A DNA stretch of 64,000 nt from Hydrogenimonas thermophila (GCF_900115615.1 NZ_FOXB01000003.1:1-64000); one strand, 5' to 3'. Shown: positions 23,530-46,727, counted from the first letter of the stretch. Notes: generated by a model not told the origin, from the sequence alone. A program made the numbers and translations.

Positions 23530-23867
23530 TATTTTTCTGTTGGAGCTTCAGGAGCTGATGGTACAGCAGGTGCTACAGGTACAGCAGGAGGTGTTGGTAC
23601 ACTGCTTTGTGATGGCAAATTATCTACAACAGATTGGTTGTAGTTTTTATTATAAATATAGCCTAATGCTATTGTATTTAAAATAAAGATGAGTCCAATG
23701 GTAAAAGTAGCTTTAACCAAAAATCCAGCAGGACCCTTTGCACCAAACACTGACTCATTAGATCCGCTATATGCACCAAGACCAATAGATGAACTTTTTT
23801 GAAGCAGAACAAGAATAGTCAATATGACAGCCAGTACGATTTGAAATACAAATAAAACGGTAATCAT
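23529..23867 (-). CDS. secG: Preprotein translocase subunit SecG
   Basis: SecG is a small two-helix component of the SecYEG channel. Helix 1 is about residues 3-22 (TVLFVFQIVLAVILTILVLLQ), followed by the conserved cytoplasmic loop SSSIGLGAYSGSNESVFGAKGPAGFL and helix 2 (about 52-70). The 112-residue protein ends in a Pro/Ala/Val-rich tail, usual for the Campylobacterota form. It is the first gene of a minus-strand series secG-deacetylase-frr-pyrE-RDD-MFS. Confidence 0.93.
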   Translation of the reverse strand: MITVLFVFQIVLAVILTILVLLQKSSSIGLGAYSGSNESVFGAKGPAGFLVKATFTIGLIFILNTIALGYIYNKNYNQSVVDNLPSQSSVPTPPAVPVAPAVPSAPEAPTEK

Positions 23868-36924: not shown

Positions 36925-36952
36925 AATGGTCGGAGTGGCGGGATTTGAACCC
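36925..36952. repeat. Left attachment repeat (displaced 3' end of tRNA-Pro)
   Basis: These 28 bases are identical to 46648-46675 and comprise the CCA end, acceptor 3' strand and part of the T arm of the tRNA. Identity stops at 36953, where the sequence becomes element DNA. It is the host tRNA 3' end displaced by integration. Confidence 0.92.
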
Positions 36953-37080
36953 TAAAGGAATGATATTCTAAAGTTTCTTAATGTTATCTATTTATTTGTA
37001 ATAATCCCTAAAATAAGGCATTTAGTTAACCTTGCTATTATATAAAGTTTTCTATACTTTTAGCAAGTAATTTATATTTT

Positions 37081-37101
37081 GGGTAGCAATAGGGTAGCAA
37101 A
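37081..37101 (+). repeat. Left arm-type integrase site
   Basis: The 21-base sequence made of two GGGTAGCAA units (spaced by T and A) is repeated perfectly at 46559-46579, in the same orientation, near the other end of the element. Placement inside both ends, next to the attachment repeats, is that of integrase arm-binding sites. It lies 33 bases before the integrase start, so integrase may also regulate itself here. Confidence 0.7.
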
Positions 37102-37133
37102 ATATAAAGCACTCAAAGGCTAAAGGGGATAAT

Positions 37134-38234
37134 ATGGCAAGGGTAAAAAGCAAGAAGTATCAGGGAGTATATCTTAACAAGTTAGCAAATGGAGATGTTA
37201 GCTATTCATTCACTTACAAAGATGAAGGGGGTAAAAAAGTATGGGTAACAGTTGGCAAAAAATCAGCAGGTATTACTGAAATATACACTTACAATAAAAG
37301 GAATGAGTATATTAATAAAATTAGATTAGGTGAAGACCCACTAGAAGCAAAAAAGATACGTAAAAGTAAGGTTTTGGATGATGCATATCAACTCTATATA
37401 AAAGATAGAGAGCTACACAATAGAGCATTACACGATGAAATAGCCAGATATGAGAATCATATTAAACCAACATTTGGAGCTATTCCAATAGCCTCTATAA
37501 CTCCAGAGGCAATACAAAAACTACAAAAACAAAAAATAGATGAGGGATACAGTCTAAAAACTGTAAATCATATAATCAACTTACTATCAACTATCATTAA
37601 TGTAGCTATAGAGAAAGAGCTATTTAAAGGTAACAACCCAGCTAAAAAAGTTAAACGCCTTAAAGTGGACAATGCAAGAGAACGCTTTTTGAATGTTGAT
37701 GAGGTTAAATTATTGCTTGATACAGTTAAAGACAATCCAATGATTTATCTTTTTTGTAATCTTGCATTATCAACAGGTGGACGACTTGAAACAATACTTG
37801 CAATCCAAAAAAAAGATATTGATCTAAACAGTGGGACAATAAAGCTAAAAGACTTTAAAAACAATAGTACCTATACAGGATTTATAAATAATAATCTTCA
37901 CTCTTTATTAGGTGACTTACTACCAAAACTAAAAGCAAATGATTATATTTTAAGTGGCAATAGTGAACCACTAACAGCACGACAGATACAAGTACCATTA
38001 AAACGAATATTGGATAATCTCTTTAATAAAGGATTGAAGCCAAACGACCGTAAAAACAGAGTAGTTATACACACGCTAAGACATACATTTGCAAGTCATT
38101 TAGCTATTAATGGAACTCCAATATACACAATTCAAAGGCTTATGAATCATAAAGATATAAATATGACGTTGAGGTATGCAAAGTTAGCACCAGATAGCGG
38201 ACGGGAAGCGGTTAAAGGTTTATTTTTTTCTTAA
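37134..38234 (+). CDS. int: Tyrosine recombinase (integrase) of the element
   Basis: The 366-residue integrase has an N-terminal arm-binding domain (about 1-65), a SAM-like core-binding domain (LDDAYQLYIKDRELHNRALHDEIARY..., about 85-170) and a catalytic domain. The catalytic residues are Arg in STGGRLETILAI, His-x-x-Arg in IHTLRHTFASHLA, His in LMNHKDINMTLRYAKL and the nucleophilic Tyr of that same block. It carries out site-specific integration and excision at the tRNA-Pro repeat. AAAGGGGA lies just before the ATG. It reads into the element from the left end. Confidence 0.95.
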   Translation: MARVKSKKYQGVYLNKLANGDVSYSFTYKDEGGKKVWVTVGKKSAGITEIYTYNKRNEYINKIRLGEDPLEAKKIRKSKVLDDAYQLYIKDRELHNRALHDEIARYENHIKPTFGAIPIASITPEAIQKLQKQKIDEGYSLKTVNHIINLLSTIINVAIEKELFKGNNPAKKVKRLKVDNARERFLNVDEVKLLLDTVKDNPMIYLFCNLALSTGGRLETILAIQKKDIDLNSGTIKLKDFKNNSTYTGFINNNLHSLLGDLLPKLKANDYILSGNSEPLTARQIQVPLKRILDNLFNKGLKPNDRKNRVVIHTLRHTFASHLAINGTPIYTIQRLMNHKDINMTLRYAKLAPDSGREAVKGLFFS

Positions 38235-38320
38235 AAGTTAACATTTTAAAATATTCATTCTATAAAAGTTAAAGTAATATTGTGTAATATCGTGTAAAGT
38301 CTTTTATACGAGGTAATATA

Positions 38321-38941
38321 ATGAAGACGGTTTTAGGTTTTGAATTGACAGATGAACAGTTTGAAGAGTTAGCAGAATATATAAATTTAGATGAACTAAA
38401 AAGACAGATAAAAGAAGACTTTAAATATCCAGAGGACTATATAAACACAATATTTTTTGAAGATTTTTATATTGAAGATTTTGGAGAAGTTAATAATACA
38501 GTTAACAAAATATTGATAAACATCTACAAAATAATAAGAAAATATTACAATATTGAAAAAGATACTTTTATTAATAAAATCATTGAATGGAATTGTGATT
38601 ATATTAGTGATAAAGTAAAAAATGATTTTTTTGATTATTTAGCCGATTATGTACAGAATGAACCAGAAATATTGAGAAAAATAGTTGGTAGTTATGTTAT
38701 AGGTTTTGAAATAAAAGAATTAGATAATAAGATTATATTTGAATGTTATGAATCAGATGGAGATATAGACGGAGATATGATAGTAATTACAATTGAGAAA
38801 GAATTAGATGAAATCATCAAAATCATTAAAGATGATGTAATAGAAACAGTGTATAGAGTCTTATCAGAATATCTAAAAGACTACAAAGACGCAGGAACTC
38901 ACGATAATCTATCGTTAGATCAGAAAAAGGACGGACTTTAA
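38321..38941 (+). CDS. Very acidic protein of unknown function (element cargo)
   Basis: The 206-residue protein is strikingly rich in Asp, Glu and Ile, with segments such as FFEDFYIEDFGEV and YESDGDIDGDM, and has no signal peptide or membrane span. Its DNA is richer in A and T than the replication genes that follow. No family is recognised. It lies between integrase and the AlpA-like gene, a usual cargo position in satellites. A net negative surface could mimic DNA, as in anti-restriction proteins, but this is speculation from composition alone. The upstream 86 bases hold the ribosome binding site region CGAGGTAAT. Confidence 0.6.
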   Translation: MKTVLGFELTDEQFEELAEYINLDELKRQIKEDFKYPEDYINTIFFEDFYIEDFGEVNNTVNKILINIYKIIRKYYNIEKDTFINKIIEWNCDYISDKVKNDFFDYLADYVQNEPEILRKIVGSYVIGFEIKELDNKIIFECYESDGDIDGDMIVITIEKELDEIIKIIKDDVIETVYRVLSEYLKDYKDAGTHDNLSLDQKKDGL

Positions 38942-39014
38942 CCACACGATAAAGATAATCAAATCAATTATTGAATCACTTGATAACAGCCCTATAAAAG
39001 ACAAGGCTACAGAT

Positions 39015-39530
39015 TTGCTTGATACCTTAGACAAAAAGATAAACAGCACCAAAGACGGAGCATATAAACCACTCAAAGAGCTTTTAAAATGGATAGATAA
39101 CGCTAATGTAGGGTACATAATGCAAGATGAAAAAACGGGTAAAATCTTTTATCCAGTAATTGCAGATATGCTTTATTTTGAGCTTAAAACTATTGCATAC
39201 ATCAAAGAGCCATTTATAGAGGCTTTATGGAGTAGATATTATGAGATTTTAAACAGTGAAAAATCTAAAGAGATATTTAATCGATTAGATGAAACAGATA
39301 AAAGAGCGGTTATCTATTTAGTTAACTGTAAAACCATAGGAAAACAAAGGCATTATTTAGCCTCTTTATTTAGTAGGGAATTGAAGATTGAATACAAGCA
39401 TATTAAAAAGCTAATAGAACATCTATTTTATCCAGTTCCTAAAAATGCAAAATTACCAAATGAACCAATGAAAGAACCACCAGAGCCAATAATTAATCCT
39501 CTTAGATACTCTTTTAAAATAGCCTCTTAA
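39015..39530 (+). CDS. Uncharacterised helical protein (element cargo)
   Basis: The frame is open from 38919 to 39530 but has no ATG or GTG before the first internal Met. TTG 39015, preceded by AAGG, is the best candidate start and gives 171 residues; an ATT/ATA start further upstream cannot be excluded. The protein is mostly helical and Lys/Glu-rich, with KIFYPVIADMLYFELKTIAYIKEPFIEALW and a Pro-rich end (NAKLPNEPMKEPPEPI). There is no recognisable domain. Close spacing with the preceding acidic gene suggests a two-gene cargo unit. Confidence 0.5.
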   Translation: MLDTLDKKINSTKDGAYKPLKELLKWIDNANVGYIMQDEKTGKIFYPVIADMLYFELKTIAYIKEPFIEALWSRYYEILNSEKSKEIFNRLDETDKRAVIYLVNCKTIGKQRHYLASLFSRELKIEYKHIKKLIEHLFYPVPKNAKLPNEPMKEPPEPIINPLRYSFKIAS

Positions 39531-39559
39531 CTCTATAAAATCTTAAAAATAACCTCATC

Positions 39560-39581
39560 AAATCCCTACTTTATGGGATTT
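39560..39581 (+). terminator. Hairpin before the alpA-primase operon
   Basis: AAATCCC (39560-39566) and GGGATTT (39575-39581) form a seven-base stem with an eight-base loop, followed by TATC. It is placed right after the cargo gene and could end its transcript; the T-tract is short. Confidence 0.4.
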
Positions 39582-39677
39582 TATCACCGTTCGGAAACTT
39601 TTACTTTTATTTCCGTACCCAGAGACCCCTAAACATTCCATAATTTCACCAAACAAACACAAAACGGAGGTGAGATT

Positions 39678-39917
39678 ATGGAAACCACAGCAAAGTTAAT
39701 CTATGAAGATTTAAGAAGCCGTTACAACAGAGCGGTTATAGGTAAAAAAGATTTAGCTAAAGAATTAGGCGTATCTCTTTCTACTATCGATAACTACATT
39801 CACAGAGGTTTTGGAATCCCACCATATAAAAAGCTAGGTACAGCACATAATGCGAGAGTGGTATTTAATCTTGTAGATGTAGCAAACTTTTTAGCACAGA
39901 CTATCAAGACAGCATAA
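39678..39917 (+). CDS. AlpA-like helix-turn-helix regulator / excisionase
   Basis: The 79-residue protein has a MerR/AlpA-type winged helix: VIGKKDLAKELGVSLSTIDNYIHRGFGIPPYKKLG..., then a basic strand and VDVANFLAQ. AlpA proteins regulate integrase or act as recombination directionality factors in prophages and satellites. ACGGAGGTGAG eight bases before the ATG is an almost ideal ribosome binding site. It is the first gene of a set with primase and helicase. A directionality-factor role is inferred from size, fold and element context. Confidence 0.72.
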   Translation: METTAKLIYEDLRSRYNRAVIGKKDLAKELGVSLSTIDNYIHRGFGIPPYKKLGTAHNARVVFNLVDVANFLAQTIKTA

Positions 39918-39926
39918 GGTAGCTTA

Positions 39927-40967
39927 ATGCAGGACATCAAAGAGCTAAAAGCTTACCTTGATAAACAGGTAGTACGGGATATTTTAGAATCATTAGGCTA
40001 TGAGTTTAACCGTGTAGGACAATTCAGGCTAAGAGATGAACGCACCCCGTCAGCCAGTATCAGGCGTGATGGACTTATCAAAGATTTTGGCAGTGATTGG
40101 AGCGGTGATATTTTTGCATTACTCCAGGAGTATCACTCTATGACATTTAAAGAAGCGGTTAATTATGTAGCTAACTATTTAGGTTTATCAAGTGTAGATG
40201 TTGAGGTTAAAAAAGCCCCCAGATTTACCCCTAAACCAAAGGAAGAGCCAAAGCCAAAGTATGACATTACCAAGATGTATGAACGCCTTAAAAGCCAAAA
40301 AGAGAGTTTAGGAGTAAAGATTTTGGATCAATTCTATAATGACTTAATTCCGAAGTCAATATTAGCCGAGACAGAACACACCAGTTTAAAAAAGATGATC
40401 GGCTATGACAAACGCAACGAAAGCTTTACCATCTCTTTACTTAAAGGTGATGAGGTTAAAGCGGTAACTATCCAAAGAACCAAAGACGGTACTAAATGGA
40501 AGACATACGGCAAAAAGTCCTATATCCCTTACAGGGTAACTCTAAAGCCTTATGTTTTTGTAGTTTTTGGAATGAAAGAGATACTAATAATGGAGAGTTG
40601 GAAAGAGCCTTATATCGGCTTTCAAAGTGATTCAGTGGCTAAAGGAATAGCAAACAGCCCACAGGGAGCAGAAATTAAAGAAGCGGTAGCAGATAGAACG
40701 CTCATATTGTTACTTGATAATGATACATCCTGCTTTGAAACTATAGAGCCGATAAGTGCATATTTTAGCAATAGTGCAGTAATAGTGATCGACTTTCAAA
40801 AACTACTCTTTGATCAAGAGTTACCAAAGGGTTATGACTTTTACGATTTTGTAATGTGGTGCGAGAGCCTAAAGGTAGCCGAGTTAATGCTGAATGATTT
40901 TATAACGGGCTACCCTTTTTATGATGTTAGTGCAGATGTAATACCAGTTTTAGCGGAGGTAGCATAA
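39927..40967 (+). CDS. Primase-like protein with cysteine-less CHC2-type and degenerate TOPRIM domains
   Basis: The 346-residue protein resembles phage and plasmid primases. The N-terminal 90 residues have the shape of a DnaG CHC2 domain (QFRLRDERTPSASIRRDGLIKDFGS, then GDIFALLQEYHSMTFKEAVNYVANYLGL), but the zinc-binding cysteines are absent. A Pro/Lys linker follows. The TOPRIM-like half shows ILIMESWKEPYIGFQ (Glu) and TLILLLDNDTS (Asp-x-Asp type). It should prime or assist DNA synthesis of the element together with the RepA-like helicase whose start overlaps its stop (ATGA). Confidence 0.72.
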   Translation: MQDIKELKAYLDKQVVRDILESLGYEFNRVGQFRLRDERTPSASIRRDGLIKDFGSDWSGDIFALLQEYHSMTFKEAVNYVANYLGLSSVDVEVKKAPRFTPKPKEEPKPKYDITKMYERLKSQKESLGVKILDQFYNDLIPKSILAETEHTSLKKMIGYDKRNESFTISLLKGDEVKAVTIQRTKDGTKWKTYGKKSYIPYRVTLKPYVFVVFGMKEILIMESWKEPYIGFQSDSVAKGIANSPQGAEIKEAVADRTLILLLDNDTSCFETIEPISAYFSNSAVIVIDFQKLLFDQELPKGYDFYDFVMWCESLKVAELMLNDFITGYPFYDVSADVIPVLAEVA

Positions 40968-42190
40968 TGAGCGACCTTATAGAGAAAGCCATAAATACAA
41001 GGCTAAACCAAAGCCAAAACACAGATAAACCAATTAATGCAATTGTACCACAAAAAGAGACACAGCCAAAGCCATTTTTACAGCCATTTACGGCATTGAT
41101 AAAAGACTATCAACCCCCTAAATGGTTAGTAAAAGGAATCATACCAAATCAAGGACTTATAGAGTTTTTTGGGGCGAGTGGAAGCTTTAAAAGTTTTATT
41201 GTGCTTGATATTGGATACTGCATATCAACGGGCATAAGTTGGCACGGACACGAAGTAAAACAGGGTAATGTGGTTTATTTTGCAGGGGAAGGACATCACG
41301 GGCTTATATCACGGGTAAATGCACTCCAAAGACATTATGGAAAACCTCCAGATGGTTTTTATAGATCAGAAAAACCTATAAATTTGAGTGATGAAAAAGA
41401 GTTGCAAGAAATTAGCGAGTACTTAAAGCAAATAGGAAATATTCAGCTTGTAATCATTGATACACTGCATAGAAATAGCGGGGAGTCAGACGAAGACAGT
41501 GCAAAAGATTTTGCAAAGGTACTAAAGAATATTGATAAATATTTAGCACCTTATGCAAAGGTAATAATGTGGGTACACCATACAGGACACGGTACAAAAG
41601 AGAGAAGCAGGGGAACATCTGCACGTTACGCCTCATTGGACGCTTGTTACCTCATCAAAAGAGATGATGACAGCAATATTATAGAGATGAAGTGTACCAA
41701 GATGAAAGACGCTGAAGAGCCAAAGCCTATGATGTTTGAGATGGAATCTATAGAGACTGAACTAATCAACCCAGATACAAACGAGCAGATCAGATCATTA
41801 GTACCAGTCAAAACAGATAAAACAGGAAGCACCACCAAGGATAAGCCACTTACAAAGCGTCAAAAAGATGTTTTATCAGCTTTGAGACTTGCAATCAAAA
41901 ACGATGGGCGGGAACTACCAGCCGAGATAAAAGAGCGTGAGGGTTTTATAGAGGGTAGAGGTGTTAAGTTGGAGCAGTGGAGAGATGAAGCCTATAAAGT
42001 GATAGATGTTGATTCAGATGATGAAAAATCAAAAATGGAAGCTAAGAAAAAAGCATTTCAAAGAGTACGAAAAGAGTTAAAAGAGCGGGACAAAGTGGTT
42101 ATTTATGATGAGTGGTGTTATGTTCCGTCAGACTGTAAGCGTAAATATCAAAGGGACAAGCAAGGACAAAAACCTATAAAAGGCGAGTAA
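40967..42190 (+). CDS. RepA-like hexameric helicase (AAA_25 family)
   Basis: The 407-residue protein carries a RecA-fold ATPase: Walker A FFGASGSFKSFI (about 65-76), NVVYFAGEGHHGLISRVNAL, Walker B LVIIDTLHRNSG, and KVIMWVHHTGHGTKERSRGTSA as motif 3/4. This is the pattern of RSF1010 RepA-like replicative helicases of plasmids and phages. The N-terminal 50 and the C-terminal 130 residues are charged and probably flexible or bind partners. The gene overlaps the primase-like gene by one codon and is followed by the GGGAC repeat cluster, consistent with a replication unit. Confidence 0.85.
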   Translation: MSDLIEKAINTRLNQSQNTDKPINAIVPQKETQPKPFLQPFTALIKDYQPPKWLVKGIIPNQGLIEFFGASGSFKSFIVLDIGYCISTGISWHGHEVKQGNVVYFAGEGHHGLISRVNALQRHYGKPPDGFYRSEKPINLSDEKELQEISEYLKQIGNIQLVIIDTLHRNSGESDEDSAKDFAKVLKNIDKYLAPYAKVIMWVHHTGHGTKERSRGTSARYASLDACYLIKRDDDSNIIEMKCTKMKDAEEPKPMMFEMESIETELINPDTNEQIRSLVPVKTDKTGSTTKDKPLTKRQKDVLSALRLAIKNDGRELPAEIKEREGFIEGRGVKLEQWRDEAYKVIDVDSDDEKSKMEAKKKAFQRVRKELKERDKVVIYDEWCYVPSDCKRKYQRDKQGQKPIKGE

Positions 42191-42211
42191 GTCCACAATT
42201 TAGGGATTTAA

Positions 42212-42330
42212 AAGCATACGGGACATACGGGACAAAGCGGGACATTTAGAAATTTTGTCCCGCTGAACAAAACACATCAAGCGGGACGGGACGGGACACA
42301 CCCCTATAAGGGGTGTCCCCGTGTCCCGTT
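42212..42330. repeat. GGGAC repeat cluster, candidate replication origin of the element
   Basis: Within 119 bases there are nine GGGAC or GTCCC copies: plus at 42220, 42229, 42239, 42283, 42288 and 42293; minus at 42257, 42315 and 42323. Three at 42220-42243 are spaced nine to ten bases apart and three more are tandem with a five-base period. Two dyads lie inside: AGCGGGACA/TGTCCCGCT (42236-42264) and ACACCCCT/AGGGGTGT (42298-42316). The position directly after the helicase gene is typical of iteron origins. A strong RNA hairpin ending the transcript is the alternative. Confidence 0.6.
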
Positions 42331-42378
42331 GGTGATGTTGGCAATTTAAAGACTATCTTTTTAAAGGGGAAAAATACA

Positions 42379-43605
42379 ATGCAACTTATGCAACATCAAC
42401 AGCGTGGAAGCAAAGAGATCCAACACCTCATCAAAGATAAGATGATGGCAATCGTACAAGCTCCAGAGAGAAGCGGTAAAACTCTTATGACTATAGACGC
42501 TATAGCAAACCTACCTTTTAGCAGGGTATTAGTCATCACTAAGAAAAAAGCGATTGATGGTTGGAAAGATGATCTTAAACTCTATAACGATAACTTTCAA
42601 TCTATTAAACGAATTGAAATAGAAGTTATCAATTACGAAAGTTTGCATAAAGTAGCTATCAAGCCAGAGTTAATCATTATCGATGAATTTCACTACTCTA
42701 TATCTTCATTTCCAAAAACGCCCGCTAAAGCAAAGCTAATAAGAGATAATTGGTTAGACGTGCCAAAGATTTACATATCAGCCACACCAGCACCAGAGAG
42801 TGCTAGTCAATGGTTCCATCCTATGTGGCTAAGTAGTCATCATCCATTTAGCCAGTTTAAAAACTTCTATGAGTGGGCTAATAAGTTTGTAAATATCGAG
42901 TTAAAGAGTTACGGACACGGTACAGTCAAAGATTATAGCAATGCTAAAACAGATCAGATCATGCAGTACATCAGACCCCACCTCATCCAAATAAAAAGAG
43001 AAGAGACGGGCATTAAATTTCAGCCATCCATAGTACCCGTATATATAGACTTAGACCCCCGCACAATAGCACTAATTGAGAAGCTGAAAAGAGATCGAGT
43101 ATTAGGGCGTACATTCATAGCAGATACGCCCGTAAAGTTGATAAATGGAATGTACCAGTTAGAATGCGGGGCTTTACTTGTAGATGGCATTTATCACGAT
43201 ATGGGAAACCGTGAGCATATCAACTTTATTAAGTCTAATTTTGGAGATACTAAAGATGTAGCGATTATGACCCGTTGGGTTGGAGAGCGTCAGATAATGG
43301 AGAGAGAATTTAAAAACGCATTGATTCTAAGCAGTCATAGCCACGCAGAGGGGGTAGAATTAAGCCACGTTGAACATCTCATAATATCAAGCCTTGATTA
43401 CTCAACAGCACGATACCAGCAACGCAATGCACGTCAAGCCAGTGTCAAGCGAAAGACCCCTATTAAAGTACACGTTTTAATGAGTAAGGACCAGGTAAGC
43501 GAAGCAGTTTATAAAATCGTAGCACTTAAACACCAGGACTTTAAAGCCAGAATGTTTATGTCAAAAGTGAACACACCTTATAAACCGTTCACTTATGCAA
43601 GATAA
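42379..43605 (+). CDS. Phage-type SF2 (SNF2-like) helicase
   Basis: I choose ATG 42379 (AAAGGGGA upstream); the frame opens earlier but would run through the repeat cluster. The 408-residue protein has Walker A APERSGKTLMTI (about 28-40), motif Ia VLVITKKKAIDGW, the DEAH-like box LIIIDEFHY and motif III YISATPAP. A C-terminal helicase half has motif V-like LSSHSHAEGVELSHVEHLI and motif VI YSTARYQQRNARQ. It resembles SNF2-like helicases of phage replication modules and directly precedes a VRR-NUC nuclease gene, a familiar phage pairing. Confidence 0.82.
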   Translation: MQLMQHQQRGSKEIQHLIKDKMMAIVQAPERSGKTLMTIDAIANLPFSRVLVITKKKAIDGWKDDLKLYNDNFQSIKRIEIEVINYESLHKVAIKPELIIIDEFHYSISSFPKTPAKAKLIRDNWLDVPKIYISATPAPESASQWFHPMWLSSHHPFSQFKNFYEWANKFVNIELKSYGHGTVKDYSNAKTDQIMQYIRPHLIQIKREETGIKFQPSIVPVYIDLDPRTIALIEKLKRDRVLGRTFIADTPVKLINGMYQLECGALLVDGIYHDMGNREHINFIKSNFGDTKDVAIMTRWVGERQIMEREFKNALILSSHSHAEGVELSHVEHLIISSLDYSTARYQQRNARQASVKRKTPIKVHVLMSKDQVSEAVYKIVALKHQDFKARMFMSKVNTPYKPFTYAR

Positions 43606-43651
43606 AGCCCTAATTATCGTTATTTTAGCGTTCACTTACAAAGGTTAAACA

Positions 43652-43924
43652 ATGACAGAACAGCAGATACAAAAAGAGATCATCAAATATCTTGAATCTA
43701 TAGGAGCGTATACCATCAAGACCATTAGGACCAACAGAGCAGGAACGCCCGATATAATTGCTTGTTTAGATGGTAAATTTATCGCTATTGAAGTTAAACG
43801 CAAGGGTAACAAGCCCACGCCCCTACAATTAGCCAAAATAGAGCAGATAAGAGCGTCAGGCGGTATAGCATTTATAGCGTATAGTAAGGATGATGTAGTT
43901 AAGTGTTTAAGCGGGTCCTTCTAA
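43652..43924 (+). CDS. VRR-NUC domain nuclease
   Basis: The 90-residue protein is a stand-alone VRR-NUC domain of the PD-(D/E)xK superfamily. It has the N-terminal helix EQQIQKEIIKYLESIGAY, catalytic Asp in NRAGTPDIIA, the Glu-x-Lys pair in FIAIEVKRKGNKPTPLQ, and QLAKIEQIRASGGIAFIAYS after it. Such nucleases cleave flaps or Holliday junctions and are common in phages beside helicases. It follows the SF2 helicase by 46 bases. Confidence 0.88.
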   Translation: MTEQQIQKEIIKYLESIGAYTIKTIRTNRAGTPDIIACLDGKFIAIEVKRKGNKPTPLQLAKIEQIRASGGIAFIAYSKDDVVKCLSGSF

Positions 43925-44330
43925 GGCTAAAAGCTTATGCGGGTGCTCGTGACCGCAGAAAACGTACACAAAAACATTTTTTTTCTTTGTCTCATATTCT
44001 CAAAATAATGAAGACACCTTTAATGTTTGTTGATTTTGGGACAAAAGGGTAAATTATAAAAGGTGGAGATTGCAGTGATAGTTGAAAGTTGACCAAAATT
44101 AACCAGTTAGTCAACTCTTGGTTAATCTCTTTTAAGTACCATAAAATCGGTATTTACTCAAAACTTAAGTTATAAAGTTGACTAAGTTGACCAACCTTTT
44201 AAACCTTGTAGCTAAAAAGATATTGGGTATCCCACTACCCCCAAAACCGAACCTTTTACAAGGACCCAGATTTTTAAAGCTTTGATAATTATGCACTCTA
44301 TCATTAGCTATCTCTTTTTAAAGGGTAGCT
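43925..44330. other. Gene-free stretch with four GTTGAC(C/T)AA repeats
   Basis: No coding frame of note is present. The nine-base motif GTTGACCAA/GTTGACTAA occurs at 44088-44096 (plus), 44107-44115 (minus) and as a tandem pair at 44177-44185 and 44186-44194 (plus). The cluster is upstream of the Mor-like gene, so it may be a regulator binding array or secondary iterons. The rest of the interval is A/T-rich with a run of eight T near 43978. Confidence 0.5.
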
Positions 44331-44600
44331 ATGACACTACTAACCCCCGAACATTTACTTACTATCCTACCACCCGAAACAGTAAAGCAGATATGGGAGT
44401 TTTGCAATGGTAATTTAGTCTATTTTCCATCAAAGCCTTTAGAGTATAAAGAGATTAAAGACCAGTACAAAGAGTTGATGGAAGCTAAGATAATGAAGCA
44501 TAGTGAAGCAGTGAAGATACTATCAAAGAGATTCAATAAAAGCTATAAAACCATTGATAAAATTGTAAAGAGTAGAAAGAAAGATAAAATCTTAGATTAG
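44331..44600 (+). CDS. Mor-like transcription activator
   Basis: The 89-residue protein fits the Mor/C family of phage middle/late activators. A short dimerisation helix (LLTILPPETVKQIWEFCNG) is followed by the beta-strand signature NLVYFPSKP, then a helix-turn-helix (HSEAVKILSKRFNKSYKTIDKIVKSRKK). A family member would bind the target promoter as a dimer. AAAGGG and an ATG eight bases on support the start. It may activate a host, helper phage or element promoter. Confidence 0.6.
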   Translation: MTLLTPEHLLTILPPETVKQIWEFCNGNLVYFPSKPLEYKEIKDQYKELMEAKIMKHSEAVKILSKRFNKSYKTIDKIVKSRKKDKILD

Positions 44601-44930
44601 TTTATTAATTTAAGTTTAGATACCACAATAGACGATTAAACACCAAACCTTAAATAAAATCAGCATATATCTAAGATAGAGTTAAGATAATCACTCATTT
44701 AAGGTTACTATTCCTTAAAGTCGTATCAAGTGGTATAAAGTGATATAAAATAGTAGTAAAAAAGTATTGAAAATCAGGATTTTCAAATAGTTAAATTTTT
44801 CATAAGATTTTAATTCTTAAATGGATTTGCTTTTTAAGACAGCGTAACCAAAAGAATGATGAGGTTACGCAGTGGAGAGCTTAGAACTTATCAGCCAATT
44901 TATCAAAGATCAATTCATTCATTTTCAACC
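44601..44930. other. Gene-free stretch with one hairpin
   Basis: Apart from A/T-rich DNA the only structures are GCGTAACC (44842-44849) pairing with GGTTACGC (44863-44870), and GAAAATC/GATTTTC near 44770. The first could end the convergent transcripts of the Mor-like and repressor genes, although neither side has a T-run. No promoter-like box is convincing. Confidence 0.4.
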
Positions 44931-45149
44931 CTACTCATCACCCGCCTTTTTATCGGTACAGATAACATCTTTAACACTATCAAGCGTTTTAGCTTTGATG
45001 TAGTTGTTAAGCCAAGATTCGAGCCAGTAAGGATACCCTCTTGCAGTCCAATTATTAACCGTTTGATGATGAGTTCCAAGCAGTTCAGCCAATTTTTTAT
45101 TGGTAAGATTAGCTTTTTTAAGTAGTGCTTTATAAGTCTCTTTATCCAT
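44931..45149 (-). CDS. Cro/CI-like helix-turn-helix repressor of the element
   Basis: I start at ATG 45149 (AAAGG upstream), giving 72 residues: MDKETYKALLKKANLTNKKLAELLGTHHQTVNNWTARGYP and on. The helix-turn-helix is LTNKKLAELLGTHHQTVNNW. The upstream in-frame ATG at 45203 lies in the operator region and is unlikely. It is the only element gene on the minus strand and diverges from the small early operon across a promoter overlaid by palindromes, the plan of a lysogeny switch. Confidence 0.75.
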   Translation of the reverse strand: MDKETYKALLKKANLTNKKLAELLGTHHQTVNNWTARGYPYWLESWLNNYIKAKTLDSVKDVICTDKKAGDE

Positions 45150-45194
45150 AGACAAACCTTTACTTACTATTTTATCAATAAAATTGTAGCATTT

Positions 45195-45280
45195 TTTATA
45201 CATATGAGTAATTTTTTTATTGACATTAAATTACAAATATGATTATAATAATAGCCAATTTATTACACATATGAGTAATA
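45195..45280 (+). promoter_or_regulatory. Switch region: rightward promoter and three operator palindromes
   Basis: A near-perfect sigma-70 promoter has TTGACA at 45220-45225 and TATAAT at 45244-45249 (spacing 18). Three related 20-base dyads lie around it: O1 45194-45213, O2 45229-45248 and O3 45261-45280. O3 is nearly a perfect palindrome, TATTACACATATGAGTAATA. Their centres are about 35 and 32 bases apart, close to three helical turns. O2 sits over the spacer and -10, so binding would block RNA polymerase. The likely ligand is the adjacent repressor. Confidence 0.72.
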
Positions 45281-45308
45281 AGCAAAAACCATTCCAAAGG
45301 GGCAGAAG

Positions 45309-45524
45309 ATGAAAACTAACCCAGTAAAAGAGATCCGTTTAACTGATTTTGAAAATGACATTAACCGTATCAAGGGAGTGGCAAACACTCTTTACTTTTT
45401 ATCACTGGATGTAGAGGAGATGTTAGAGGACTCTTTAATACTCTTACATCAAGACCTACTAAAGATAGTTGAGAATGCTGAAAAGGTACATGAACTTATA
45501 AAACAGACTATAAAGGCTAACTAA
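45309..45524 (+). CDS. Small helical protein, element early operon
   Basis: The 71-residue acidic helical protein (IRLTDFENDINRIKGVANTLYFLSL, then EEMLEDSLILLHQDLLKIVENAEKV) shows no motif. It is the first gene of the operon controlled by the switch promoter, with AAAGGGGCAG before its ATG. Its stop overlaps the next start (TAATG). Confidence 0.65.
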   Translation: MKTNPVKEIRLTDFENDINRIKGVANTLYFLSLDVEEMLEDSLILLHQDLLKIVENAEKVHELIKQTIKAN

Positions 45525-45730
45525 TGGATGTAGCAGAGTTATTTATCACGGCAATAAGAGCCAGAGAGGAAAAGGCTAAAGAGGTGATTATCTCTATGAC
45601 TTCAGATAACTTCTTTAAATTTGCAGAGGCTATCTATGATGGGAGTTTTACGGAGTGTAATCCAATGGCATTTTTTAAAGATATCAAAGTTCAAATTCAA
45701 ATCAAAGGGGTAATAGATGAAAAAGTATGA
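45524..45730 (+). CDS. Small protein, element early operon
   Basis: The 68-residue protein MDVAELFITAIRAREEKAKEVIISMTSDNFFKFAEA... has no recognised domain. Its ATG overlaps the stop of the preceding gene and its last codons overlap the next gene by 14 bases, so the three are translationally coupled. Confidence 0.6.
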   Translation: MDVAELFITAIRAREEKAKEVIISMTSDNFFKFAEAIYDGSFTECNPMAFFKDIKVQIQIKGVIDEKV

Positions 45731-45938
45731 TCCAATAGATTATGAGTTAGCAATCCACGATCTAGCAGGTATAGCGGTATTAGTTGAGAGCGTAGGACAT
45801 AGAATCAATACAGTTGGAACAAGTCAAAGTGATGAGAACGCTTTTAGCCAGATAACAGACTTACTTCACACTAAGCAGGAAATATTCCAGGCACTCTTTG
45901 ATGAGTATCACGAATTAATGCGTGAATCAAAAAAATAA
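45717..45938 (+). CDS. Small helical protein, element early operon
   Basis: The 73-residue protein has a long amphipathic N-terminal half (YELAIHDLAGIAVLVESVGHRI) and a second helix ending EYHELMRESKK. It could be a small regulator or replication accessory. AAAGGGG about eleven bases before the ATG serves as its ribosome binding site. It is the last gene of the early operon. Confidence 0.6.
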   Translation: MKKYDPIDYELAIHDLAGIAVLVESVGHRINTVGTSQSDENAFSQITDLLHTKQEIFQALFDEYHELMRESKK

Positions 45939-46000
45939 TAGATCAATAGCGGGGCATATGTACCCGCCTACTAAGCATAATTTTCAGCCCAGTAAAAGAG

Positions 46001-46016
46001 AGCGTAATTTTACGCT
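46001..46016 (+). terminator. Hairpin after the early operon
   Basis: AGCGTAA (46001-46007) pairs with TTACGCT (46010-46016), extended by outer GAG/TTC pairs, and is followed by TTCAG. It lies about 60 bases after the last small gene; a plausible terminator with a weak T-tail. Confidence 0.45.
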
Positions 46017-46084
46017 TTCAGAGATGGTGACTTATGGTGACTTTTATATGTTTAGTTTTAAAAGTTGACATCCAATAGCTTGTA

Positions 46085-46173
46085 AACTTTTGTTAACTTT
46101 CTAAAAGTGGGAACTTTTAAGTGGTAACTTTTGGAAACTTTGCAACTTTATCTTTGAAACTTTTTGCAACTTA
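46085..46173 (+). repeat. AACTTT direct-repeat cluster near right end
   Basis: Eight AACTTT-like units stand in the same direction at 46085, 46095, 46112, 46126, 46136, 46144, 46158 and 46168 (the last AACTTA), often preceded by G-N or T-N and spaced 8-17 bases. Two further GTGACTT units lie at 46027 and 46037. The 710 bases from 45939 to 46649 contain no gene, only this cluster, two dyads and arm-type repeats. It may be iterons, a directionality-factor array or a packaging-type signal. Confidence 0.55.
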
Positions 46174-46383
46174 TACCACTCAATCGTTAAATATTGTTAG
46201 TAGAATTTAAAAGCTTAAATTTTAGCTTTTATTACTCCAGCCATACCAAACTATACCCAGACCATTTAAAACGCTTTTACAGCTAAAAGAAAGGCATTAA
46301 TACCCATAGTAGAAAGCACAATACCCTTAGTAAGTAGATAAACGACCTAAGCAAAACTTAGAGCGTCCACTAAAAGCAGATAG

Positions 46384-46411
46384 AACGTGAGCATAAAATT
46401 ATGCTGACGTT
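46384..46411. other. 28-base near-perfect dyad
   Basis: AACGT-G-AGCATAA-AA-TTATGCT-G-ACGTT forms 12 paired positions broken by one G/G mismatch. The site is not next to a gene. It could bind a dimeric protein during excision. Confidence 0.5.
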
Positions 46412-46529
46412 ACCACAAAATTATGGAGAGTTAACCGGCTCAAAATTACGCCCGTTAAATGATAATGCTACATTGTAACAGTATGAGAGATACCCGCTTA
46501 ACCTCATCAGGATATTATCTATCTTTACA

Positions 46530-46579
46530 GGGTAGCAAAAAGGTAGCTTTTTAAAAATGGGTAGCAATAGGGTAGCAAA
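46530..46579 (+). repeat. Right arm-type integrase sites
   Basis: GGGTAGCAAA at 46530-46539 and AGGTAGC at 46541-46547 precede the full 21-base double GGGTAGCAA repeat at 46559-46579, which is identical to 37081-37101. It ends 68 bases before the right attachment repeat. Arm-site clusters flanking the core are typical for tyrosine integrases. Confidence 0.7.
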
Positions 46580-46647
46580 GCTATTTTATCTGTTTTCTTA
46601 AAAGGCTATGCAAAGTCCAGTATTTAGGGGTTTTTAGAGAGTTTATT

Positions 46648-46675
46648 AATGGTCGGAGTGGCGGGATTTGAACCC
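46648..46675. repeat. Right attachment repeat within tRNA-Pro 3' end
   Basis: Identical to 36925-36952. It contains the 3' part of the intact tRNA, so the element restored the tRNA when it integrated. Confidence 0.92.
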
Positions 46676-46727
46676 GCGACCTCTACCACCCCAAGGTAGC
46701 ACGCTAACCAGGCTGCGCCACACCCCG
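46650..46727 (-). tRNA. tRNA-Pro (anticodon GGG)
   Basis: The 78 bases on the minus strand fold into a cloverleaf: acceptor CGGGGTG with CACTCCG and discriminator A, D arm GCGC/GCGT, anticodon stem CTACC/GGTAG with loop TTGGGGT (anticodon GGG), T arm GCGGG/CCCGC with loop TTCAAAT, and an encoded CCA end. It reads CCC and CCU codons. The 3' part is also the integration site of the 9.75-kb element. Confidence 0.95.

Follow-up and report, generated by a model that had tools for sequence, protein, structure and literature searches.

An integrated element occupies positions 36925-46675 of the 64,000-nucleotide stretch of Hydrogenimonas thermophila DNA analysed here (GCF_900115615.1, NZ_FOXB01000003.1:1-64000; the window, with strands given below for those features to which one is assigned). 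The element is bounded by a 28-bp exact direct repeat (36925-36952 and 46648-46675, spacing 9723) and is, thus, 9.72 kb long. The right-hand copy (attR) lies inside an intact tRNA-Pro(GGG) gene on the minus strand (46650-46727), which is the integration site, and the left-hand attachment site (attL) is a copy of the 3' end of this gene; as the repeat equals the tRNA 3' end, the tRNA at the right end was left intact by integration. Of the 13 open reading frames (ORFs), 12 are directed rightward and the sole leftward ORF encodes a helix-turn-helix (HTH) repressor. The GC content is 27-31% at the left end, ~40% in the replication module and ~30% further right, which suggests that the element is a mosaic. 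A preliminary description had given the repeat, tRNA, gene list and coordinates correctly and had read the element as a possible phage satellite devoid of virion, terminase and transfer genes; profile scans against Pfam, PHROGs and NCBIfam matched none of the ORFs tested to a virion, terminase, relaxase or lysis family and bear out its integrase, AlpA-like, primase/RepA-like, superfamily 2 (SF2) helicase and VRR-NUC assignments.

The left end carries the functions expected to move the element. The tyrosine integrase (37134-38234, plus strand; PF00589 1e-23, phrog_1 3e-59) has conserved catalytic residues (R217, H313-R316, H339 and Y348). An arm-type integrase site, GGGTAGCAATAGGGTAGCAA, is found upstream of it (37081-37100, plus strand) and again at 46559, with a variant at 46530, and is repeated in a sister element of the same genome (see below). 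The two right-hand sites fall in a conserved right-end region (46388-46625) with 79-80% identity to the right ends of the sister and of a cousin element, L235. This anatomy strongly implies that the integrase recombines at the tRNA-Pro 3' end via the arm sites at both ends. An AlpA/excisionase-like regulator (39678-39917, plus strand; HTH_17 7e-6, phrog_66 2e-6) has a homologue in L235 (2e-44). Between these genes are two plus-strand ORFs for which the family scans were uninformative: ORF2 (38321-38941), with no family found, in the position of an integrase-overlapping gene of the relatives, and ORF3 (39015-39530), with no significant family, a possible cargo gene. A PADLOC search for defence cargo gave no convincing match. 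Near the right end, a cluster of AAAAGTT/AACTTTT repeats (46060-46172) is a candidate for a second binding array.

The replication module, all on the plus strand, starts with a primase-like protein that has a degenerate DnaG zinc-ribbon (39927-40967; PF01807 7e-5, TIGR01391 2e-7), followed by a RepA-like AAA_25 ATPase (40967-42190; PF13481 2e-29, phrog_906 4e-44). A search for close RepA relatives gave only 23-34% local matches in 399 genomes of the order; relatives in IMG/VR are 34-41% identical, and none of 80 such loci has a neighbour that matches the rest of the element. Directly 3' of repA is a candidate replication origin (42219-42330) composed of two CGGGAC iteron clusters, with 8 units in ~110 bp, whereas 500 Markov control sequences held 0.13 on average and never more than 2. 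The 37-nt spacer that the clusters flank is 65% AT, rising to 92% in a 12-nt core. The origin of phage-inducible chromosomal islands (PICIs) is, similarly, the region directly 3' of the initiator, with two iteron sets around an AT-rich region (PMC6092414). The module is completed by an SF2 helicase (42379-43605; ResIII 7e-7, phrog_62 2e-37) and a VRR-NUC nuclease (43652-43924; PF08774 5e-8). The helicase is 58-66% identical to those of the related elements. Outside its own clade, it is best matched by those of Nitratiruptor phage NrS-1 (37%) and NrS-type prophages; virome copies sought with the helicase and the integrase gave nothing closer than 38%.

The repressor-controlled operon of the preliminary description is recognisable on the right. 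The HTH repressor (44931-45203, minus strand; HTH_3 6e-5, phrog_8898 2e-14) adjoins a switch region (45200-45281) with a promoter at 45220-45249, TTGACA-18-TATAAT, that agrees with the sigma-70 consensus at 12/12 positions with 18-nt spacing and is bracketed by two identical 13-bp operator-like boxes, ACATATGAGTAAT, at 45200 and 45267; promoter-like matches as a class are not in excess (3 found vs 4.7 expected). Under this promoter are three small plus-strand ORFs (45309-45524, 45524-45730 and 45717-45938), the second of which is homologous to an ORF of the sister. To the left, an intergenic 34-nt motif (43939-43972, plus strand) is a candidate cis site for packaging or origin function; at up to 3 mismatches it is found in 2 of 299 genomes, those of this element and of its cousin L235.

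ORF9 (44331-44600, plus strand) links the element to phage packaging genes. It was previously taken for a Mor-like activator, and a Pfam Mor match does exist, at E=0.0013, which falls below the Pfam cut-off; the label is here corrected to a conserved family of small proteins encoded directly downstream of terL, the large terminase subunit gene, in Campylobacterota phages. Among 299 genomes of the order, the well-scoring homologues (L198, L199, L201-L204 and L206) lie directly after TerL and directly before a head-morphogenesis gene, except that in L206 an unmatched ORF of 449 amino acids fills the place directly after TerL. In phage NrS-2, the homologue is NrS2_46 (31% identity), positioned between NrS2_45 (large terminase) and NrS2_47 (head morphogenesis). 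As these homologues adjoin terL in phages, the element carries a relative of a phage packaging-cluster gene. The predicted fold of ORF9 is uninformative; it may be a late regulator or a packaging factor.

The sister element was recovered by a DNA search of the same genome and appears on two contigs, C11 and C22, at a tRNA-Met gene. At the end of contig C22 is a copy of the tRNA-Met 3' end, accompanied by arm sites and an integrase that is 39% identical to that of the window. Contig C11 has the intact tRNA-Met, arm sites and two small ORFs (one homologous to 45524-45730), followed by a CII-like protein, the small terminase subunit TerS, RecT, an ExoVIII-like nuclease, VRR-NUC, a lambda-O-like initiator, a helicase (66% identical) and AlpA, after which the contig ends. 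The shared att sequence and arm sites indicate that these are probably parts of one element, the known parts of which sum to ~9.65 kb with an unsequenced gap between them. The two elements of this genome have right-end DNA in common (79.6% over 113 bp). The initiator gene of the sister (L007:12298-12930) holds internal repeats of a GVSKLNT unit, resembling the lambda origin inside gene O.

The sister TerS (PF05119 5e-14, phrog_83 7e-19) is accompanied by no TerL in the sequenced parts of the element. Its homologues in 6 other Campylobacterota genomes all adjoin a phrog_9 TerL (a fragment in one, L278), and portal and HK97 capsid genes are confirmed beside them in 2 of these 6. Some PICIs are likewise known to carry TerS but not TerL (PMC6092414), and the occurrence of the small subunit without the large one in the sister is the strongest sign that elements of this kind may depend on a helper phage.

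Similar islands of 8-10 kb are present in three other Campylobacterota genomes (L101, L102 and L190), and a fourth genome has a partial one (L100). A genome-collection scan and whole-genome searches place the remainder of the helicase clade (57-60% identity) in few genomes, including an island that spans 8.87 kb of an 81-kb contig, is flanked by tRNA-Leu copies and has arm sites at either end (L101), an 8.2-kb island at a transfer-messenger RNA (tmRNA) gene of a finished chromosome (L190), an island at tmRNA for which the right att was not found (L102), and a partial island beside tRNA-Leu that is cut by a contig end (L100). These four share a gene set of int, helicase, O, ExoVIII and RecT (except that the cut L100 lacks int); structural genes were not recognised in any of them. 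A 4-nt overlap between int and another gene is seen in the sister, L101 and L102 but not in the window element. Near their right ends, L101 (15495-15998), L102 (14367-14942) and L190 (7322-7870) encode a winged-helix protein that is conserved among them and carries the motif DPSRD.QR.AN. This protein, which L100 also has, is possibly a Nu1-type TerS; the structural model is a confident winged helix with weak helices, and Foldseek matches were not significant.

The tRNA-Pro site in 18 genomes of the genus mostly has a single att copy and, thus, no element. In G151, a 3.5-kb cousin sits at the same tRNA-Pro (L235:2456-6020, contig C13) with only an integrase, AlpA and an O-like protein. The integrase of this cousin shares 86% identity with that of the window, while its arm sites are altered to GGTAACCAATAGGTAACCAA; its right end has ~296 bp in common with the element at 79% identity. 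Two further occupants of the site were noted. In G173, a 1.65-kb segment with two ORFs and no recognised integrase lies between two tRNA-Pro att copies (L236:3802-5480, contig C163) and is possibly a passenger moved in trans. In G040, a tRNA-Pro att copy is followed by a different integrase near the contig end (L237:11412-13876, contig C79), indicating another kind of island at the site. The preliminary description had named two findings as fatal to a satellite, the lack of any related intact element in other genomes and an origin as a decayed part of a larger prophage. The first is answered by L101, L102, L190, L235, the partial L100 and the sister.

As to the second, no larger prophage was found: the genome (estimated 100% complete) gave no match to two TerL profiles (phrog_2 and phrog_3717) or to the HK97 capsid profile (PF05065), phrog_9 TerL not having been searched, in a search in which the positive controls and the host genome of NrS-1 did match. 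In G025, one of the genomes with a tmRNA island, a TerL-bearing prophage is found nearly 1 Mb from the island; a search for sites shared by this island and prophage gave only a weak match (67% over 576 bp). Elsewhere in the window, an 18-bp tandem repeat of 2.9 copies (23549-23601) is the only array that scores >=60.

Taken with the comparison to relatives and sister, which now backs the satellite reading of the preliminary description as the best one, these features make it likely that the element is an intact, repressor-controlled, integrative PICI-like phage satellite that relies on an absent helper for its packaging. The sequence itself supports a repressor switch, autonomous replication, and integration into and excision from tRNA-Pro. 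Helper-dependent induction triggered by AlpA, and packaging, are proposed because of precedent and the sister TerS. In an uninfected cell, the minus-strand HTH repressor would hold down the strong rightward promoter, as the promoter and operator-like boxes suggest. Upon entry of a helper phage, AlpA and/or the loss of repression may start excision and rightward expression, following the PICI and PICMI (phage-inducible chromosomal minimalist island) precedents. The circle would then be replicated by the primase and RepA from the iteron cluster 3' of repA, with the helicase and VRR-NUC likely assisting replication or processing, and the DNA would be packaged by the helper large terminase into helper capsids. 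The sister presumably brings its own TerS to this step; the window element, with no recognisable TerS, is probably served instead by a cis site, for which the 34-nt motif is a candidate, and/or by ORF9.

Several points weigh against a satellite. Induction, excision, packaging and a helper have not been observed; the searches described above found no resident helper; and the 34-nt motif is absent from IMG/VR and phage loci, with no cis packaging (cos/pac) site found that is common to any phage. The element is smaller than typical PICIs (9.7 kb vs 12-15 kb). The relatives of RepA, and those of the helicase outside its clade, belong to ordinary tailed phages, such that each piece could come from a prophage early region. 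This last point leads to an unlikely alternative, that of a shrunken prophage in which the left (early) half of a siphovirus was kept by chance after loss of the late genes. The resemblance of the helicase, VRR-NUC and RepA to phage early proteins, with the best helicase match in NrS-1, and the relatives of ORF9 in phage late clusters are in line with such an origin; however, the element has kept both att sites, the arm sites, the catalytic residues of the integrase and its main ORFs intact, and independent relatives of 8-10 kb at other tRNA/tmRNA sites, one on a finished chromosome, keep the plan without late genes. That several prophages would have decayed separately and each arrived at this gene set is improbable.

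It is quite unlikely that the element is instead an integrative replicon (an integrated plasmid or genomic island) which moves without phages, by rare transformation or by conjugation in trans. A complete replication module with an iteron-like origin would suit such a replicon, as would the lack of a recognised packaging gene in this copy; but the profile scans of the ORFs found nothing of the relaxase or mobilisation families, a plasmid collection matched the integrase at below 30% identity at best, and it is hard to see a role for the sister TerS other than in phage packaging. It is very improbable that the element descends from a satellite but no longer has a packaging function, being now either immobile or cross-mobilised with the help of the TerS-bearing sister: no TerS-like ORF is recognised in this copy and the sister in the same cell has both TerS and the shared right-end DNA, but many PICIs and PICMIs without terS still move (PMC6092414, PMC10803314), and the conservation of non-coding DNA with L235 suggests selection on cis functions.

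The PICI-like satellite thus remains the favoured reading, and the element, which belongs to a previously undescribed group of such elements in Campylobacterota, is most likely a parasite of phages. No description of satellites or PICIs in Campylobacterota was found in the open-access literature searched (subscription journals not covered). A more far-reaching and doubtful proposal is that the two elements and their relatives form a Campylobacterota satellite lineage with swappable replication and packaging-diversion modules, in which the TerS-less kind redirects its helper via ORF9, not known as a satellite hijacking factor. If the reading is confirmed, satellites reach the Campylobacterota of vents and sediments. 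Two sister elements in a single cell, of which only one carries TerS, provide a natural test of the trade between packaging strategies, and ORF9 draws attention to a conserved but unstudied packaging-cluster gene of Campylobacterota phages.

Among known systems, the Gram-negative PICIs (e.g., EcCICFT073 and PmCI172; PMC6092414) are similar in the order int-AlpA-primase-Rep-origin, in the rightward direction of nearly all genes, in the two iteron sets immediately 3' of rep, in the lack of structural and lysis genes, and in that terS is present in some members only. The window element differs in its RepA, helicase and VRR-NUC of phage type, its tRNA/tmRNA sites, its Campylobacterota host and the TerL-adjacent ORF9, and lies below the usual PICI size, a criterion that is typical and not absolute. 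PICIs are further marked by att sites never used by prophages; in the 18 genomes of the genus, the tRNA-Pro site is used by other small islands, one of them (L237) near a contig end and with a different integrase. The likeness to PICIs is one of layout and of the proposed way of working. Formal PICI membership, which would also call for induction, packaging and PICI-exclusive orthology, is not claimed, the size being below the typical range.

The PICMIs of Vibrionaceae (PMC10803314) are likewise small marine satellites with int, AlpA and a primase and with no capsid-remodelling gene. Their iolg gene, which overlaps int and is needed for PICMI excision (PMC10803314), is paralleled by the gene that overlaps int by 4 nt in the sister and relatives. 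By contrast, the window element has no int overlap, resides at tRNA-Pro and not next to fis, lacks a DUF3987/DUF5906 primase and has a larger replication module and a repressor switch. P4-like satellites share an integrase, an AlpA (Vis)-like regulator, a primase and a repressor, whereas the profile scans of the element gave no match to sid, psu, delta or the fused alpha primase-helicase. Temperate phages differ in that no terminase, portal or capsid gene is recognised in the ORFs of the element. The Nitratiruptor phages NrS-1, NrS-2 and NrS-3 (PMC9723563) resemble it in tRNA-gene integration, in a related helicase (NrS-1) and in the ORF9 family (NrS-2, NrS-3 and the NrS-1 prophage L193), but are full temperate siphoviruses of 37-40 kb with terminase, capsid and tail. 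They are a candidate helper type and not the same element, and these cultured phages offer a starting point for the helper if the satellite is confirmed.

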